DNA from: Arcobacteraceae bacterium
GTDB taxonomy: Bacteria; Campylobacterota; Campylobacteria; Campylobacterales; Arcobacteraceae
Length of the DNA: 64,000 nt
Reading direction: 5' to 3'
Assembly (NCBI GenBank): GCA_021107755.1
Contig: JAIOSF010000022.1
Coordinates: 1 to 64,000 of the forward strand
Of the stretch, positions 3,605-53,319 are shown piece after piece. Under the pieces are notes generated by a model, which had not been told where the DNA came from, made no database searches, and saw only the letters and a list, made by a program, of their open reading frames with translations. Positions within the stretch are counted from its first letter, which is position 1. Every line of letters begins with the position of its first letter. The position numbers were made by a program, and so were the translations under genes.

Positions 3605-4129
3605 ATGAAAAAATTTATACTTTTACTTTTAAGTATAGCTTATCTTCAAGCAGCAAATCCTATTGCTGTCTTAGAAACAACACAAGGAGATATAGAGATA
3701 GAGTTACGACCAGACTTAGCACCAATTGCTGTTGAGAACTTCTCTACACATATTAAAAATGGATATTATGATGGACTAATTTTTCACAGAATCATCAAAA
3801 GATTTATGATACAAGGTGGAGACCCAACTGGAACTGGTCGAGGTGGAGAATCAATCTGGGGAAAACCTTTTAAAGATGAGTTCACATCAAAAGCTATGTT
3901 TAATCGTGCTGGTGTATTAGCTATGGCAAATGCTGGACCAAATACAAATGGAAGTCAATTTTTCATAACAACTATAGAAACACCTCACTTAAATGGGAGA
4001 CATACGATTTTTGGTTATGTGAAAGATAAGAAAAGTTTTGCTATTGTAAAGAAATTGGAAAATGTACCTACTGGGTATAGGGATAAGCCTGTAAATGAGC
4101 AAAAAATTATAAAAGCCTATATAAAATAA
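3605..4129 (+). CDS. Periplasmic cyclophilin-type peptidyl-prolyl isomerase
   Basis: A signal peptide (MKKFILLLLSIAYLQAANP, cleavage probably after AA near residue 17) precedes a complete cyclophilin domain. Family motifs are FHRIIKRFMIQGGDPTGTG (including the catalytic Arg), FKDEF, AMANAGPNTNGSQFFIT and LNGRHTIFGYV. It should catalyse prolyl cis-trans isomerisation during folding of exported proteins, the role of PpiA in other Gram-negatives. The start follows AAAGGGA at 3595-3601. The gene is followed after 11 bases by a BFD-like ferredoxin, likely the same transcript though without an obvious functional link. Confidence 0.93.
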   Translation: MKKFILLLLSIAYLQAANPIAVLETTQGDIEIELRPDLAPIAVENFSTHIKNGYYDGLIFHRIIKRFMIQGGDPTGTGRGGESIWGKPFKDEFTSKAMFNRAGVLAMANAGPNTNGSQFFITTIETPHLNGRHTIFGYVKDKKSFAIVKKLENVPTGYRDKPVNEQKIIKAYIK

Positions 4130-43583: not shown

Positions 43584-46304
43584 CTAGAAACTTGACCACT
43601 CATCATCATCTTTATTTGATACTACAGTTTTAATACCTACCGACTTTCTATCGTGTGATGCTTCCTCTTTTTTATACTCTTTTATTTTATCATGATACTC
43701 TACAGTATCTTTTGCCTGAGGAGTTATAACATCTCTTCCCCTCTCAAGTTTAAGTTCATGACATTTATGAACCTTAACTTTATCAATACCTTCAAATACT
43801 TTTGTTGTATTTTCCTCTATACTTCTTGCTATAGTATGAAGTTTTTGATCATTTCTATTTTTTGCATCTACATTGATAAACTCTTGTACTCCACTATGTA
43901 CTTGCTCATGTGCTTTTAATAACTCTTGCCAATCAGAGTTTTGGGTAAATTTTTCATTTGTATGTTGTTCAATCCATTTTCCAAGAGCACACTCATGATG
44001 ATTTTTTACAGTCCACTGCTTTCCATCTCCAACATCTTTGAAGTTTGTTTCTTTGAAGTTAATATGGTCAAGCTTTAACTTAGTTGTATCAAACACCATA
44101 TTTACATCACACACTGAGTCACCTCTTGCTTTATCAAAGCTTGTTCTATTTACTACAGCTATCAATTGACTTGAAATCTCACTTAATATCATAGCTTTAT
44201 TTGCAACTATCTCAGCACCATTTGCATTTTCTTGTGTAGCTTTATCTAATTGATTTACTGCACTATTAATTTGCTCCATCCCTATTTTTTGCTCATGAGT
44301 AGCTTCTGTTACCCCAGTAACCATCTCAGTAACTTCAGCAACTTTTTCATTTAAGAATTTAAAGCTATCAACCATTCTATCAGCAGTAGTTTTTCCCTCT
44401 TTAGTTTTCTCTTGTGCATAATTAACAAGGTTTTTAATCTCATTTGCAGCTTCAGCACTTCTGCTAGCAAGATTTCTAACCTCTTGAGCAACAACAGCAA
44501 AGCCTTTACCAGCTTCACCAGCAGTTGCTGCTTCAACAGCTGCATTTAAAGATAGAATATTTGTTTGGAATGCAATTTGATCAATAATAGCTATAGCTTC
44601 AACAATATCATTTGTTGCTTTATCAATCTCCTCCATTGAAGAACCTGTTTTATGTGCAAGTTGATCATCTTCATTACTTGTTGCCTGCAATTCTTTTGCG
44701 ATTTGTAACATTTTGTTTGTTCGCTCATCTGTTTGATTAATAGTTGAAGTTATCTCTTCAATAGCAGCTGCTGTTTCTTCTAGAGATGCGGCTTGCTGTG
44801 TGGAAGAGGCAGAAAGTTCTTCACTAGTTGCTGCTAGTGCTTCTGCATTACTAGATAATCTTAATGCTGTATTATTTACCATACACAATACTTCCGAAAC
44901 AGATACACCTAATGCATTTGTCCCTTTAATTAAAGAACCTACATTTCCAGAACTTTTTGCATCTATTACATAATCATACTTAGCATTACCAAATTGAATC
45001 AATGCATTTGTTATGAGTGATAAATTATTTTGAGTAACTTGAAGCATCTCATTTACTTTTACTCTTAATTGTTCAACTTGAGGAGATGATGCTTTTTGTT
45101 TTATCTCATAAGTATAGAATCCATCTTTTGCTTTATGTACAATCTCTATAGCCTCTTCAATTACTTTAGTATCTTGCTTGATACCCTCTTCAATTTTGTC
45201 TAAGTATTTATTAAAATTAGCCGCAACTTCCCCTATCTCATCTGCTCTTTCTATCTCTACTCTTTCACTTGTATTTGAGTTTTGAGATATACTTATAATC
45301 GCTTCATCAAGCTCACGAAGTGGTTTAATAATAATTTTTCTTGAGAATATAACAATAATTATCGTAATAACTATTAAAATCAAAATAATTAATCCAATTG
45401 CTGTATAGATAAGTCCTTGAGATTGTGCTACTAACTCCTCAAGTTCAATACTATCTTCACCTATTACATAATAACCTATTTTGTTACCAGTATAATCTAT
45501 AACTGGAGAGATTGTTAAAAAATATTTATCACTCATCATAAATTTTTTAGATACAAGTTCTTTTAAATTTATTGTAGCAATATATGAAGCAAAATTTTTA
45601 TCAAAAGTTTTTTGATTAAGAATATAATCTCCCACTTTTGAAAGTTTTTGAAATGACTTATCATCTAACTTTGTCTTTAGAATATCTTGTTCTAAAAGCA
45701 TTAAAGCATACGCTTTATCTTGTTTTTTCAAAGATTTTATAATAGAGTTGTAACCTGCTTTAAATTCTACAGAGCCTACAAACTTACCGTCTAAATCAAC
45801 TATTGGTGCTACACCAATCATATTGATATCTGTTTTACTTATTTCTGAACCTACTACTGCTTTTTTAGTGATATGCACATCACTAATTGCTTTTCTTTCA
45901 TCTAAAAGTTCATCCCCAAAACTATCACTTTTCCATGAACGCAAAAATGATTTTCCATATTCATCATGGATATGTATTTTAATATTTTTAAAATTAGTAT
46001 TATTTTTAAATACTATTGAAAGTCTTTTCATAGCATCAATTGCTTTTTCTCTATCATTGTTTTGAAGAGCTTCCACTAGTGTTCTATCATTAGCAATTGA
46101 TATTGCATTAGAGAGACATATCTCACTTTTTCCAACAATCTTATCAGCCATAGAACCATTTAAATGAACTGCTGTATCTTCATATACATGTTCTTTAATT
46201 TCACCTAATTTAAAGCTAAATAAAACTAATGCTAACAAAAGTCCAACTATTGAACTTCCCACAATTAAAGCTATTAGCTTATTTCCTATTTTCCAATTAT
46301 TCAT
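43584..46304 (-). CDS. Chemoreceptor with CACHE sensor and C-terminal zinc-binding (CZB) domain
   Basis: This 906-residue receptor has helices at about 10-30 and 297-320 around a double-CACHE sensor ([29 protein letters not shown]). A HAMP domain (about 322-372) and a signalling domain follow, the latter with the tip [20 protein letters not shown] near 585. A CZB domain (about 770-870) has [19 protein letters not shown] and HEQVHSG, the His/Cys set that binds zinc. CZB domains are linked to zinc, pH or oxidant sensing in Helicobacter and E. coli. The C-terminus DDDEWSSF is a W-x-x-F tether like that of the receptor at 1-434. AAGGATATTATT precedes the ATG. Confidence 0.94.
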
Positions 46305-46390: not shown

Positions 46391-47626
46391 ATGAAAATCT
46401 CTATACCTCTGTTTATATCTATTATAACTCCCTTATTTGCTCAAGAAGCTAGTTCTGAATCTTTTTTAAATTCACAATCTTTTATCTTTACTATTATATT
46501 AGTAATAGTTATATACTACTTTATAAAAAAAGAGAAAAATCTTGAAAAATCATATCATCAAATTGAAGCAGTGATCAACACAACAATTGAATCAATTATC
46601 GTATCACAAAATTATAAATGTATTGACTTTAACGAATCAGCACTAAAACTTTTTAAAATTACAAATAAACATGATGCTTTAGGGAAACACCCTTTAGACT
46701 TTATTGCTCAGGAATCTAAAGAGTTAGTAAAAAAGAAAATTATTCTAGATAATGCTGATCTTTATGAAGCTATGATCGTTACCATGGATGGAGAAAAAAT
46801 TCCTGTTTTACTCAAAGGGACAAATATAATTGTAGATGGGAAACATTTACGAATATCTTCTATTATTGATATAAGTGAACTAAAAGACAGAGAATCTAAA
46901 CTCATCTCACAATCTAAGTTAGCTAGCATGGGTGAAATGATAGGCAATATAGCTCACCAATGGAGACAACCTCTCTCTGTAATATCCACAAGTGCTACAG
47001 GTATGCATATGCAAAAAGAGATGGGATTGTTAACAGATGATGAGTTCTACAAATATTGTGAAGTTATCAATGAACACTCTCAATTTTTGTCACAAACTAT
47101 TGATGACTTTAGAAACTTTATAAAAGGGGACTCAAAACCTGTAAGATTTGATTTAAAAAATGATACAGATAGTTTCATAAAACTTGTAGATGCAACTATA
47201 AAAAGAAATAATATCACCATTATTTTGGATTTAGAAGAAAATATCCATATTCAAGGATATCCAAATGAGCTTATTCAATGTTTTATGAATATTTTTAATA
47301 ATGCAAAAGATGCTTTAGTAGAAAACAATGATGAAGATGATAGATTTATTTTCATCTCACAAATTATAAATGAGAATAATGTAATTATAGAATTTAAAGA
47401 CAATGCAGGTGGAATTCCTGAGGATATTATTGATAAAGTATTTGAACCATATTTTACAACTAAACACAAATCACAAGGTACTGGTCTTGGACTTCATATG
47501 AGTTATAATCTAGTAACAAATGGTATGAAAGGAACTCTTGAAGTTAAAAACGATGAATATGATTTTAATGGAAAACATTACAAAGGTGCATGTTTTGGTA
47601 TTGTGATACCTTTAAATATTTCTTAA
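46391..47626 (+). CDS. PAS-containing sensor histidine kinase
   Basis: This 411-residue kinase has an N-terminal signal-like segment (MKISIPLFISIITPLFAQ), a membrane helix at about 30-47, one PAS domain (about 55-165) and the H-box NIAHQWRQPLSVISTSATG near 188. An ATPase domain has NIFNNAKDAL, FKDNAGGIPEDIIDK and GTGLGLHMS. It has only a short periplasmic part, so the signal is likely read by the PAS domain. No response regulator is adjacent. It shares the H-box family with the kinases at 32812, 36077 and 60832. Confidence 0.9.
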   Translation: MKISIPLFISIITPLFAQEASSESFLNSQSFIFTIILVIVIYYFIKKEKNLEKSYHQIEAVINTTIESIIVSQNYKCIDFNESALKLFKITNKHDALGKHPLDFIAQESKELVKKKIILDNADLYEAMIVTMDGEKIPVLLKGTNIIVDGKHLRISSIIDISELKDRESKLISQSKLASMGEMIGNIAHQWRQPLSVISTSATGMHMQKEMGLLTDDEFYKYCEVINEHSQFLSQTIDDFRNFIKGDSKPVRFDLKNDTDSFIKLVDATIKRNNITIILDLEENIHIQGYPNELIQCFMNIFNNAKDALVENNDEDDRFIFISQIINENNVIIEFKDNAGGIPEDIIDKVFEPYFTTKHKSQGTGLGLHMSYNLVTNGMKGTLEVKNDEYDFNGKHYKGACFGIVIPLNIS

Positions 47627-49079: not shown

Positions 49080-49286
49080 CTATTTTTGTACTATTTCTTT
49101 TAATTCTTCTAAAGAGTTATCGAGTTTTTTAGATAGTTTTGTCATCTCTTCAGAAACTATTGAGAATCTTCTCCCTGCTTCCCCTTGTGCTTTTGAAGCT
49201 TCTATATGTGCGTTTAATGATATAAAATTTACTGATTGAGAGATATCATCTAACTCTTTAAAAATTGTATTTACTTTAGAGTTCAT
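49080..49286 (-). CDS. 68-residue mini chemoreceptor signalling-tip protein in the ectoine operon
   Basis: The whole protein corresponds to the hairpin tip of a chemoreceptor: LDDISQSVNFISLNAHIEASKA, then QGEAGRRFSIVSEEMTKLSKK. These align with the I..Q-T-N-L-L-A-L-N-A-A-I-E-A-A-R-A-G-E-x-G-x-G-F-A-V-V-A-x-E-V-R-x-L-A signature, with one extra residue (AQGEAG). There is no sensor, membrane helix, HAMP or methylation region. It starts two bases after the ectD stop with AAAGAG six bases before the ATG, and 20 bases later ask begins, so it is translated as part of the operon. It might bind CheA/CheW or form a small coiled coil; it could also be a relic. Family likeness sure, function unknown. 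Confidence 0.78.
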   Translation of the reverse strand: MNSKVNTIFKELDDISQSVNFISLNAHIEASKAQGEAGRRFSIVSEEMTKLSKKLDNSLEELKEIVQK

Positions 49287-49288
49287 AA

Positions 49289-50176
49289 TTAACTCTTTAC
49301 TCTCACTGGTGTATAATCATTTAAAGATAAAAAATCTGCTCTTTTTGTAGGGGCAGAAAATGGTTTAATTGGTTTATTATGTACGCTATTATAAACAAAA
49401 AATGCATTTGTTCTAGGATCAGGGGAGATATTATCTGGGCTTCCATGCATAATATTTCCATCATGTATCACTAAAGTTCCTGCTTTTCCAAGTGCTGCTA
49501 CAATATCTTTTGATGACAACTCTTTTATTGCTTCTACACTAGGGACACCATACTCTTGCTTTTTTAAAGAATATCTATAGTTCTCAGCAGGAGTCATACC
49601 TTTACAACAAACATATTTTTTATGACTTCCTGGTATTAAATATAACGGTCCATTAAAATGTGTATTATCTGTTAACATAACCCAAGCTGTTAAACATCTG
49701 CATCTTGGCAGTCCATCTTCACAATGCCAAGTTTCAAAGTCACTATGCCATGGGAAAGATTTCCCCACATAGGCTGGTTTTATATTGATACGACTATGAT
49801 GCATATAAACATCTCCACCTAAGAGTTGTTGTACTTTATCTAGGATCCTACCATCTTGTGATATTTTTTCAAATGCACTACTAAATATATGTTGGTTAAA
49901 AATAGTTCGTAAATTTTCACCATTTGGTTCAGTTATAAACTCTTCATTTTGTCGTAATTCATCATTTGAAGACATAATCTCTATATCTTCTAATAACTCT
50001 TTAATCTCATCGGCACTAAATAAGTTAGGTACTACAATATATCCATTTTCATCATACTGCTCTCTTTGGATATTATCTAAACTTTGTTGTCCAAAATTTT
50101 TATTACTATAAACTGTTTTGTCAACTCTGTTTATAATCCTCTCTTCTTGGCCTCTTGATGGATACAAATCTTCCAT
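49289..50176 (-). CDS. ectD: Ectoine 5-hydroxylase
   Basis: This 295-residue member of the Fe(II)/2-oxoglutarate dioxygenases shows the EctD signature FPWHSDFETWHCEDGLP. The iron ligands are H144, D146 and H244 (in IMHGSPDN). N-terminal QYDENGYIVVPNLFS and RINIKPAYVGKSFPW are also typical. It hydroxylates ectoine at C5 to give 5-hydroxyectoine, using oxygen, so the cell must at least tolerate oxygen. It is 17 bases after the HsrA-like gene. Confidence 0.96.
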   Translation of the reverse strand: MEDLYPSRGQEERIINRVDKTVYSNKNFGQQSLDNIQREQYDENGYIVVPNLFSADEIKELLEDIEIMSSNDELRQNEEFITEPNGENLRTIFNQHIFSSAFEKISQDGRILDKVQQLLGGDVYMHHSRINIKPAYVGKSFPWHSDFETWHCEDGLPRCRCLTAWVMLTDNTHFNGPLYLIPGSHKKYVCCKGMTPAENYRYSLKKQEYGVPSVEAIKELSSKDIVAALGKAGTLVIHDGNIMHGSPDNISPDPRTNAFFVYNSVHNKPIKPFSAPTKRADFLSLNDYTPVRVKS

Positions 50177-50193: not shown

Positions 50194-50841
50194 TTAATTT
50201 TTAAGTTTATAACCTCTATTTCTAACCGTATCTATCATATCAATATGAAATCTTTTTTTCAATTTACTTCTAATTTGATTGATGTTTACTTCAATAACAT
50301 TTTGACAAACCATCTCTGGGTCATCCCACAATGCATAGATCATCTCATCTTTTGATATGGGTGGTCTATATCTATTTTGATAGAGATAAACCAATATATC
50401 ATATGCTTTACCTCTTATTTGAAGTTCATTATTATCATAATCCACTATCTCTTTTTGCTCTTTATCGATACCAAAATAGTTTTCATGATAAATCTTTTTT
50501 TCAAAATTTTCCCTATGGATTGATTCTATTTTTGCCCATAACAATTCACCATCAAAAGGATTGATAACACACAATGCACCATTTCGAAAACACTTTAGAT
50601 GAAATTTTTTATCATCACTATGTGTTAATACAACAAATGCTGTATGGGTGTTATCAGTTGCTTTTAAAAGTGTCATACAATTTTTTAAATCATCTTCATA
50701 CATTATGACTAGATTGTAAAACCTTACCTGTAGATGATACAAAGCATCATCTAACTCATAGGTTCTATCCACAATATAATGTTCATCATATTCTAGTTTT
50801 TCAATAATTTTATTATCAATATTATAAGCTAAAAGTCTCAT
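50194..50841 (-). CDS. HP1043/HsrA-like atypical response regulator in the ectoine operon
   Basis: This 215-residue protein has a receiver-like domain (1-110) and a winged-helix OmpR-type DNA-binding domain (about 130-215). The C-terminal half is close to Helicobacter HP1043/HsrA: ALWDDPEMVCQNVIEVNINQIRSKL and DTVRNRGYKL. The receiver lacks phosphorylation residues: position 48, where the acceptor Asp should be, is Tyr (LVIMYEDD), and the conserved Lys is Asn94 (CVINPF). HsrA also works without phosphorylation. Its true orthologue is essential and conserved across the phylum, so this is more likely a paralogue recruited to the operon. It may regulate ect expression in response to salt. No kinase is needed. 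Confidence 0.85.
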   Translation of the reverse strand: MRLLAYNIDNKIIEKLEYDEHYIVDRTYELDDALYHLQVRFYNLVIMYEDDLKNCMTLLKATDNTHTAFVVLTHSDDKKFHLKCFRNGALCVINPFDGELLWAKIESIHRENFEKKIYHENYFGIDKEQKEIVDYDNNELQIRGKAYDILVYLYQNRYRPPISKDEMIYALWDDPEMVCQNVIEVNINQIRSKLKKRFHIDMIDTVRNRGYKLKN

Positions 50842-50844
50842 CTA

Positions 50845-51147
50845 TTATAACTTCACTTTTTTTTGTTTTTTATCTTCAAAAGTCAAAATAATCTCATGAT
50901 TATTTTGCTCTATACAAGAAACTATTTTTATATTTACTTGCTTATTTACCTCAAGGAATTTTTCTATTGCCTCTTTAGCAAAACCAATATCTGAATTTTT
51001 AGCAAATTCTAAAATAAGCGAATTGTCATTAAGAACAATCTTTTGATTTGTAACTCTAAAGTTGGTAAATGAACCCAATAAAACAAGAAATTCTCTTTTT
51101 TCATCTCTTGATATTGTTAAATAATTTTCTACATAAATAAATTCCAA
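50845..51147 (-). CDS. Unknown 100-residue protein of the ectoine operon
   Basis: The protein begins MEFIYVENYLTISRDEKREFL and alternates predicted strands and helices (about 50-65 helical, KNSDIGFAKEAIEKFLEV), ending with a basic KKQKKVKL. There is no signal peptide, membrane helix or Cys motif. It lies two bases after ectC and three before the HsrA-like gene, so it is tightly coupled to both. It might be a partner or antagonist of the regulator or an accessory factor of the enzymes. I do not recognise the family. Confidence 0.8.
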   Translation of the reverse strand: MEFIYVENYLTISRDEKREFLVLLGSFTNFRVTNQKIVLNDNSLILEFAKNSDIGFAKEAIEKFLEVNKQVNIKIVSCIEQNNHEIILTFEDKKQKKVKL

Positions 51148-51149
51148 AC

Positions 51150-51542
51150 CTACACCTCTAGTGGATATACTCCATTTTCATCATGATTTTCTGTCCCTTT
51201 AATTGGTGGATTAAAAACACAAATGAGTCGCATATCAACACTACCACCATATAAGTTATGATCATCATGATTATTTAAAGCATACATAACACCATCATAA
51301 ATATCATGTATCTCACCCGTAGCTAAATCTTCTATTTTTCCATCTCCAGCTACACAATATACAGCTTCAAGGTGATTTTGATAGTGTATATGTGTTTTTG
51401 TACCAGCTTTAATAATAGTTTCATGAAAAGAAAATCCCATACCATCATCTTTTAAAATCATTCTTCTACTAGTCCATTGTCCCTCTTTAGCATGTACCTC
51501 TTTACTACTTCCTATAATATCTTTTATATCTCTTACAATCAT
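51150..51542 (-). CDS. ectC: L-ectoine synthase
   Basis: This 130-residue cupin has the EctC features: WTSRRMILKDDGMGFSFHETIIKAGT, HYQNHLEAVYCVAGDGKIEDL (metal-binding Glu in HLEAVYC) and YALNNHDDHNLYGG. It cyclises N-gamma-acetyl-diaminobutyrate to ectoine by losing water. It starts three bases after ectB. Confidence 0.98.
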   Translation of the reverse strand: MIVRDIKDIIGSSKEVHAKEGQWTSRRMILKDDGMGFSFHETIIKAGTKTHIHYQNHLEAVYCVAGDGKIEDLATGEIHDIYDGVMYALNNHDDHNLYGGSVDMRLICVFNPPIKGTENHDENGVYPLEV

Positions 51543-51545
51543 TTT

Positions 51546-52826
51546 TTAAAACTCCTCACTTAACTTATCTTTTTTATCAGCAAATAGTTTATCTACAGCT
51601 GTTTCAAATCTTTTTAGTCCTTCTCTTAAAGTATCTTCATCTATAACTAATGGTGGAAGAAATTTTACAACTTGAGAGTCACTACCACAAGTTTCTATAA
51701 TAAGATTTTCTTTAAAAGCATATTCTGATATTTCTCCAGCTATTGTTTTATCATCTTTAATCTCAAAACCATATGCTAGCCCTCTTCCTCGTATATCAAT
51801 AGTATAGGTATCTTTATGTTTTTGTGCAATTTTTTCTAAAGTCTCTTTTAATATTTTTTCTTTATAAAATACAGCATTTGACAAGTCATCGTTTTGCCAG
51901 TAATTCTCTAAACTCACTCTTGAAGCTACAAATGCAAGATTGTTTCCTCTAAATGTTCCTGTATGTTCCCCTGGTTTCCATTGATCTAAATCTGGTCTGA
52001 ATAATAAAAGTGCCATTGGTAATCCACCACCAATTGACTTAGAAAGAGTTACCATATCAGGGTTGATTCCAGCAAATTCAAAAGAGAAAAACTCTCCACT
52101 TCTACCATTTCCAACTTGAATATCATCAATGATAAGTAAAATATCATACTCTCTACAAATTGATTCTAACTCTTGTAGCCATTTTGCACTAGCAACATTA
52201 ATACCACCCTCACCTTGAATAGTTTCAACAATAACAGCTGCTGGAATATCAACACCACTACTTCCATCATCTAAAAATTTTCTCAAATACTCTAAAGTAT
52301 TCCAATCTCCAAAATATCCATCAAAAGGCATAAAAGTAGCATTACATCTACTAATATAACTCTCATCTCTATATTCATTGTTTCCTGTTACTGCAAGTGA
52401 TCCTTGAGATAATCCATGATAACCATTGGTAAAAGTTACAATATTACTTCTACCTTTTACAAGTCTTGCTAGTTTTAGTGCTGTTTCAACAGCATTTGTT
52501 CCCGTTGGTCCAGTGAACTGCAGTTTATACTCTAAATTTCTTGGCTTTAAAATTAGATTTTCAAATGTTTGTAAAAACTCTTTTTTTGCAGTTGTAGCCA
52601 TATCAAGACCATGCACTATCCCATCATTTTGTAGATATTCTATAAGGGCAGCACTTATTGCATCATTATTGTGACCATAATTTAGTGTCCCAGCTCCTGC
52701 AAAAAAATCTATATACTCTACATCTTGTTCATCTGTAAGTATTGCACCTTTTGCTTTTGTAAATATTGTTGGGAAACTTCTTATATAACCTCTAACCTCT
52801 GATTCTAAACTTTCAAATATTCTCAT
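51546..52826 (-). CDS. ectB: Diaminobutyrate--2-oxoglutarate transaminase
   Basis: This 426-residue class III aminotransferase binds PLP through K263 in TLSKSIGGGLP, with FTGPTGTNAVETALKLAR for the phosphate and DDIQVGNGRSG before it. It converts aspartate semialdehyde to 2,4-diaminobutyrate. It lies 13 bases after ectA. Confidence 0.98.
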   Translation of the reverse strand: MRIFESLESEVRGYIRSFPTIFTKAKGAILTDEQDVEYIDFFAGAGTLNYGHNNDAISAALIEYLQNDGIVHGLDMATTAKKEFLQTFENLILKPRNLEYKLQFTGPTGTNAVETALKLARLVKGRSNIVTFTNGYHGLSQGSLAVTGNNEYRDESYISRCNATFMPFDGYFGDWNTLEYLRKFLDDGSSGVDIPAAVIVETIQGEGGINVASAKWLQELESICREYDILLIIDDIQVGNGRSGEFFSFEFAGINPDMVTLSKSIGGGLPMALLLFRPDLDQWKPGEHTGTFRGNNLAFVASRVSLENYWQNDDLSNAVFYKEKILKETLEKIAQKHKDTYTIDIRGRGLAYGFEIKDDKTIAGEISEYAFKENLIIETCGSDSQVVKFLPPLVIDEDTLREGLKRFETAVDKLFADKKDKLSEEF

Positions 52827-52839
52827 TTAATTTTTCCTT

Positions 52840-53319
52840 TTATTTTTTTAATTCAATTTTATATAACACTTCATCTTCATGAGCATCATTAAAATCACTG
52901 ATTTCAAACATTGTCTCTTTTTCAAAAGATACACCATAGTTCTTTGATAACTTCTCAAACAGTTTTTGAGATGAGCTATTACTTGGACTAATAGTTGTAT
53001 GTATAGTTTTTACATTTTTTGCAGACGCCCTTTGTAATATATCCATAATCATTTTTCCAGCAAGTCCTTCTCCTCGCATCTTGCTATCAACAGCAACTTG
53101 CCATATAAACAAAGTATCCTCTTGATTTGGTATAAGGTACCCTGAAGTAAAACCGACAACTTCCTCTTCTAATAAAGCAACACTACAAAACTCTCTAAAA
53201 TGAGTTGTTTGTAAAAGATATAAATATTCAGAATTAACATCTAAAACATTTGTATCTTTTACTAACTTATAAATATGTTTTGCATCACTTTTAATTGGTT
53301 CTCGAATTGAAATACTCAA
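52840..53319 (-). CDS. ectA: L-2,4-diaminobutyrate acetyltransferase
   Basis: This 159-residue GNAT enzyme starts MSISIREPIKSDAKHIYKLVKD and has the acetyl-CoA loop DSKMRGEGLAGKMIMDIL near 90-105 and TISPSNSSSQKLFEKLSK. It makes N-gamma-acetyl-diaminobutyrate. It is the first gene of the eight-gene operon; the 289-base region before it separates it from a divergent MerR-type regulator. Confidence 0.97.
   Translation of the reverse strand: MSISIREPIKSDAKHIYKLVKDTNVLDVNSEYLYLLQTTHFREFCSVALLEEEVVGFTSGYLIPNQEDTLFIWQVAVDSKMRGEGLAGKMIMDILQRASAKNVKTIHTTISPSNSSSQKLFEKLSKNYGVSFEKETMFEISDFNDAHEDEVLYKIELKK

Follow-up and report, generated by a model that had tools for sequence, protein, structure and literature searches.

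A divergent, free-standing chemoreceptor hairpin tip predicted between ectD and ask in the ectoine operon of an Arcobacteraceae bacterium

Receptor tips hold the trimer contacts of chemoreceptors together with the sites for CheW and for the P5 domain of CheA (PMC5706961). The MCP residues named for CheW/P5 contact are L362, L365, N366 and A368 in TM1143 and L518, L521, N522 and A524 in VC1898 of Vibrio cholerae; in VC1898, L521 and N522 are each essential for CheW binding, and an A524R protein still bound CheW (PMC5706961). The same interface between MCP tips and CheW/P5 is used by the AIF domain of ParP, a non-receptor protein that joins the array by mimicking the CheW/P5 side (PMC5706961). 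In Pseudomonas putida, the small stress-linked protein CsoR lowers chemotaxis by binding CheA (PMC11978298). Competitive titrator mutants of Tsr are expected, but "have not been explicitly demonstrated" (PMC4692393).

Here we describe a 68-residue ORF in a 64,000-nucleotide stretch of contig JAIOSF010000022.1, referred to hereafter as the window, that by its sequence appears to be a lineage-specific, divergent, free chemoreceptor hairpin within the ectoine (ect) operon. We know of no natural titrator of the receptor-tip kind, and nothing direct on natural stand-alone receptor tips was found in the literature. The ORF, or tip, is homologous to the MCP signalling domain (PF00015) across all 68 residues, with a two-helix hairpin in both and the turn E-A-x-x-A-(x)-G-E-x-G-R-x-F in common. 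In contrast to MCPs, which have a sensor, a transmembrane region, HAMP and adaptation helices, the tip has none of these. Nearly the same minimal hairpin is found in two engineered fragments of Tm14 from Thermotoga maritima, PDB 3ur1 chain C (85 aa) and 4jpb chain B (90 aa), to which the tip aligned at residues 15-71 and 19-75, respectively. These fragments, reportedly crystallised together with CheA P4-P5 and CheW, are laboratory truncations, whereas the tip occurs naturally as a gene, is divergent and falls short of them by about 20 residues. While ParP mimics the CheW/P5 side of the interface (PMC5706961), the tip would mimic the receptor side. CsoR is a precedent for the way in which such a protein might work, although its fold is unrelated to that of the tip and it binds CheA at P1/P3/P4, not at the receptor site on CheW/P5 (PMC11978298).

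Position and coding character of the tip ORF

The operon comprises, in order, ectA, ectB, ectC, a gene for a 100-aa protein, an OmpR-type regulator, ectD, the tip ORF and ask (Table 1). Ectoine is a salt-protection molecule. The tip ORF starts 2 nt past the end of ectD (49289) and stops 20 nt ahead of the start of ask (49059), and the AAAGAG motif upstream of its ATG may serve as its ribosome site. Readthrough fusion of ectD and the tip was ruled out, since the tip starts in a different frame after a TAA. The translation is MNSKVNTIFKELDDISQSVNFISLNAHIEASKAQGEAGRRFSIVSEEMTKLSKKLDNSLEELKEIVQK. Both motifs quoted in the original prediction are present, N-F-I-S-L-N-A-H-I-E-A-S-K-A from N20 and F-S-I-V-S-E-E from F41.

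An open frame of 68 codons has a probability of about 0.003 in random sequence of the same composition. The in-frame codon preference of the tip ORF lay at the 55th percentile of in-frame 68-codon chunks from the genes of the window and exceeded that of more than 99.9% of the out-of-frame chunks, and GC was normal at all three codon positions. Codons are thus used as in the coding sequences of the host, and the ORF behaves as a gene, beyond a chance open frame. The claim that it lies in frame and directly behind ectD held.

Table 1. Features of the ect operon and the tip ORF, in coordinates of the window
Feature	Position	Strand	Basis or remark
Stand-alone chemoreceptor hairpin tip, 68 aa (predicted)	49080..49286	-	PF00015 E=1.8e-11; AlphaFold; Foldseek
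Shine-Dalgarno-like AAAGAG, within last ectD codons, 6 nt 5' of tip ATG	49293..49298	-	read from sequence
ectD, ectoine hydroxylase, 295 aa, 2 nt upstream of tip	49289..50176	-	NCBIfam ectoine_ThpD E=1.8e-87
ask, aspartate kinase, 455 aa	47692..49059	-	NCBIfam PRK09034.1 E=6.8e-122, just under curated cut-off
OmpR-type regulator	50194..50841	-	Trans_reg_C only in Pfam; homologues in many relatives' ect clusters
Conserved 100-aa protein	50845..51147	-	no Pfam/NCBIfam family above cut-off
ectC, ectoine synthase	51150..51542	-	homologues 78-93% identical in 43 relatives' ect clusters
ectB, transaminase	51546..52826	-	named from established ect operon order
ectA, acetyltransferase	52840..53319	-	named from established ect operon order

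The neighbouring genes were examined as well. The match of ectD to its NCBIfam model reached 293 bits, just under the curated cut-off of 336, and ask was conserved at the corresponding place in 29 relatives. No receiver domain was matched by Pfam in the OmpR-type regulator, and its N-terminal part seems to be without an acidic pocket and phospho-acceptor of the usual kind. Many relatives carry homologues of this regulator, either upstream of ectA or between ectC and ask, and it may be a phosphorylation-independent ect regulator of the family. The 100-aa protein directly follows ectC in the ect clusters of about 17 relatives, at 30-55% identity, as an uncharacterised ectoine-cluster gene.

Homology, predicted fold and divergence

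The search with the MCP signal domain profile, which the original prediction had proposed as a check, matched tip residues 3-67 and scored 44.6 bits, above the cut-off of 34.6. The match covered positions 33-96 of the 172 in the profile; therefore only the hairpin is present, and the complete signalling domain with its long methylation-site helices is absent. No HAMP, sensor or transmembrane region and no further confident Pfam match was found in the ORF, which the hairpin fills entirely. Significant matches in the NCBIfam and PDB searches were to chemoreceptors only. The observation of a stand-alone tip lacking sensor, HAMP and adaptation region was confirmed, while the interpretation that came with it is supported in part, competition for CheW/CheA and a change of swimming with salt being hypothetical.

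AlphaFold, run on the single sequence, placed helices at residues 3-32 and 35-67 with a mean pLDDT of 93.3, and the tip is predicted to fold as a two-helix antiparallel coiled coil. The best PDB matches of this model in Foldseek were two entries of a soluble chemoreceptor from T. maritima (TMq 0.81, rmsd 1.6). The Foldseek E-value was weak (0.27), as with any short helical hairpin, and the sequence match is therefore the main evidence.

For comparison, the tip was aligned with the tips of 29 full MCPs from Campylobacterota, Pseudomonadota, Bacillota, Fusobacteriota, Deferribacterota, Spirochaetota, an archaeon and a phage. It kept 16 of the 29 near-invariant positions, compared to 20-29 in the full MCPs, which places it clearly outside the normal MCP range as judged from this alignment; no full MCP in the comparison had diverged as far. 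Thirteen positions were changed (I/L, Q/S, T/V, L/F, L/I, four times A/S, R/K, G/R, V/I and V/M), among them a near-invariant Gly that is Arg40 in the tip and a Gln that is Ser18, and such changes may abolish binding. The tip also has one residue more than the aligned MCPs, Q34. As it sits exactly at the predicted turn (A33-Q34), the register of both helices is kept. The original prediction overlooked the changed positions and the extra turn residue, which mark the tip as divergent and weaken a plain "decoy receptor" reading.

The replacements were conservative. Their mean BLOSUM62 score was +0.92, compared to -0.74 ± 0.44 in neutral decay simulated from the consensus, taken as the ancestor, down to the identity of the tip, and none of 3000 runs reached the observed value. 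Only 6% of the simulated decays stayed free of stops at this divergence, and 0.1% if indels made up 5% of the substitutions. The conservative changes and the rarity of stop-free decay thus argue for a history of constraint on the fold and on part of the surface, unlike neutral decay, in line with the claim that the tip is not decayed. From the one sequence, constraint on the free hairpin and constraint on an unsampled divergent parent receptor look alike, and the divergence may predate the truncation in such a parent MCP.

When the contact residues of VC1898 and TM1143 were transferred to the tip by the L-L-x-L-N-x-A spacing, they corresponded to F21, L24, N25 and H27. L24 and N25 are identical to the MCP residues; F21 is a hydrophobic replacement of L518, and H27 stands in place of A524, the site at which Arg is tolerated in VC1898. 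The tip thus seems to retain part of the surface that is bound by CheW and the CheA P5 domain.

Distribution in related genomes

Conservation in related ect operons, which the original prediction had proposed as a check, was not seen: the tip ORF was absent from all 43 ectoine loci examined from related genomes. In nine relatives ectD directly precedes ask with a gap of -1 to 62 bp, compared to 229 bp in the window; therefore about 200 bp, holding exactly the tip ORF, are extra here. In the only relative of the same genus with an ect cluster (G001), the regulator lies 15 bp from ask, and both ectD and the tip are missing. A regulatory RNA before ask was rejected, because the region gave neither an Rfam match above threshold nor a terminator. 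In another relative (L053, G078:C1:1572000-1582000), 359 bp at about 3726-4084, with a small ORF unrelated to the tip, occupy the same place directly before ask, suggesting that small insertions are tolerated at this junction.

Beyond the ect loci, the best matches in 104 genomes of the family were 41-42% identical and lay in frames of 560-734 aa, and no match closer than about 45% was present in 399 genomes of the order and 397 of the phylum. The closest MCP tips anywhere searched were 40-49% identical. For 21 genomes the matches were listed in detail, and all but the tip fell within frames of at least 327 aa. Six exact 8-residue stretches, compared with 84,980 species, returned one unrelated full MCP (42%), in a search that would overlook relatives outside the order with about 60-75% identity. 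Several leads were discarded. A spirochaete candidate (L016) was a full-length 579-aa MCP no nearer to the tip than others. The pattern E-A-x-x-A-Q-G, used to look for the same insertion in the 399 order genomes, occurred only in the window and in four other genomes; in two of these it belongs to genes for ribosomal protein S4, and in the remaining two the hit fits that S4 motif as well. Searches for a phage, plasmid or viral origin gave MCP matches only, at 49% identity or less, and nothing in IMG/VR. The 49% match, over tip residues 8-66, is to the tip of a 470-residue gene annotated as an MCP in Escherichia phage A4 (jumbo Asteriusvirus, ON286972.1 51130-52542). From these searches the tip appears to be a single-species orphan. 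Presence in one strain only, combined with high dN/dS, had been named beforehand as a sign against a function, and as to occurrence this is what was found, the tip being confined to this species in everything searched. The other sign named, a full-length MCP at this site in relatives, was seen in none of the 43 loci.

Possible functions and origins of the tip

The reading that we tentatively prefer, with less than even confidence, is that the tip is a constrained, lineage-specific free hairpin that docks on CheW-like domains and weakly titrates the chemosensory array. A free chemoreceptor hairpin would have come to lie between ectD and ask in the ect operon of this lineage alone and would be translated as a small protein, probably pairing into a four-helix dimer by analogy with receptor tips. 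Induction of the operon would produce it alongside ectD at high salt. With part of the CheW/P5-binding surface kept, the soluble tip would act as a weak competitor, occupying CheW-like domains and loosening the coupling of receptors to kinase; the genome offers five CheW-domain proteins, at C5:200, C9:28753, C16:148409, C11:20411 and C21:105831, and 14 full MCPs as possible targets. Its divergence would fit release from the constraints of the array (trimer contacts and signal transmission), with the fold and one binding face still under selection. Against a titrator, 13 of the 29 near-invariant positions differ, a number that none of the functional MCPs compared reaches, and because the tip occurs once, selection on the free form itself is conjectural. 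A functional titrator role is possible. The stronger form, in which a natural soluble tip co-induced with hydroxyectoine synthesis titrates CheW/CheA P5 and lowers chemotaxis under salt stress, we regard as unlikely.

If functional, the tip would be the smallest natural chemoreceptor-derived protein known to us; it would connect osmoadaptation with motility and provide a ready minimal ligand for CheW/CheA P5. In it, nature would also supply the competitive titrator anticipated by Tsr geneticists (PMC4692393). Should the stronger form be true, the tip would be to the receptor side what ParP is to the CheW/P5 side, and the first competitive titrator of a chemosensory array to be found in nature.

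Nearly as likely as a functional titrator is a captured, effectively neutral fragment of a divergent chemoreceptor gene, distinct from the present MCPs of this genome, that was inserted between ectD and ask by chance in frame with a start codon and a ribosome site and is translated but functionless. The absence of the tip from the 43 ect clusters and from the family, order and phylum genomes, the bare 15-bp junction in the same genus and the erosion of tip-specific invariant positions are all consistent with this, whereas the intact frame, host-like codon use, conservative changes and preserved predicted fold are not. A near parent is also missing. Given the 40-49% identity of the nearest MCPs, a recent truncation requires an unsampled parent. 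Origin from a resident MCP was rejected, as identity to the tip does not exceed 39% in any of the genome's 14 full MCPs and none occurs at this site in relatives. A functionless tip would show cleanly how a metabolic operon can capture a receptor domain as a new small gene.

It is unlikely that the hairpin has taken on a new role in the ectoine pathway, serving EctD, Ask or the atypical regulator as a small coiled-coil dimer or scaffold and making no chemotaxis contact. The place of the tip inside the ect operon, the loss of near-invariant array residues with retention of coiled-coil residues and the confidently predicted hairpin would suit such a role, but the ect operons of relatives need no such partner, and the tip has kept L24, N25 and the core E29-A30...G35-E36-x-G38...F41, which a plain coiled coil would not need.

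Two further readings are very improbable. Although a match to only the middle of the MCP domain might suggest the remnant of a full-length MCP gene formerly at this site, no MCP lay between ectD or the regulator and ask in any of the 43 relatives, which speaks against a remnant; in addition, the flanks (2 nt and 20 nt) hold no recognisable MCP coding, and the own-genome Pfam match that extends into ask is in another frame and is interrupted by three stops. A spacer that mainly couples translation of ectD and ask, its peptide sequence incidental, would agree with the tight spacing and the lack of a terminator or Rfam leader, but nine relatives couple the two genes without an ORF and a resemblance to an MCP tip at E=1e-11 would not be expected.

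Apart from the operon, the window contains a full-length receptor of dCache_3-HAMP-MCP-CZB architecture about 3 kb from the tip (43584-46304, minus strand), adjoined by a PAS-type histidine kinase (46391-47626).
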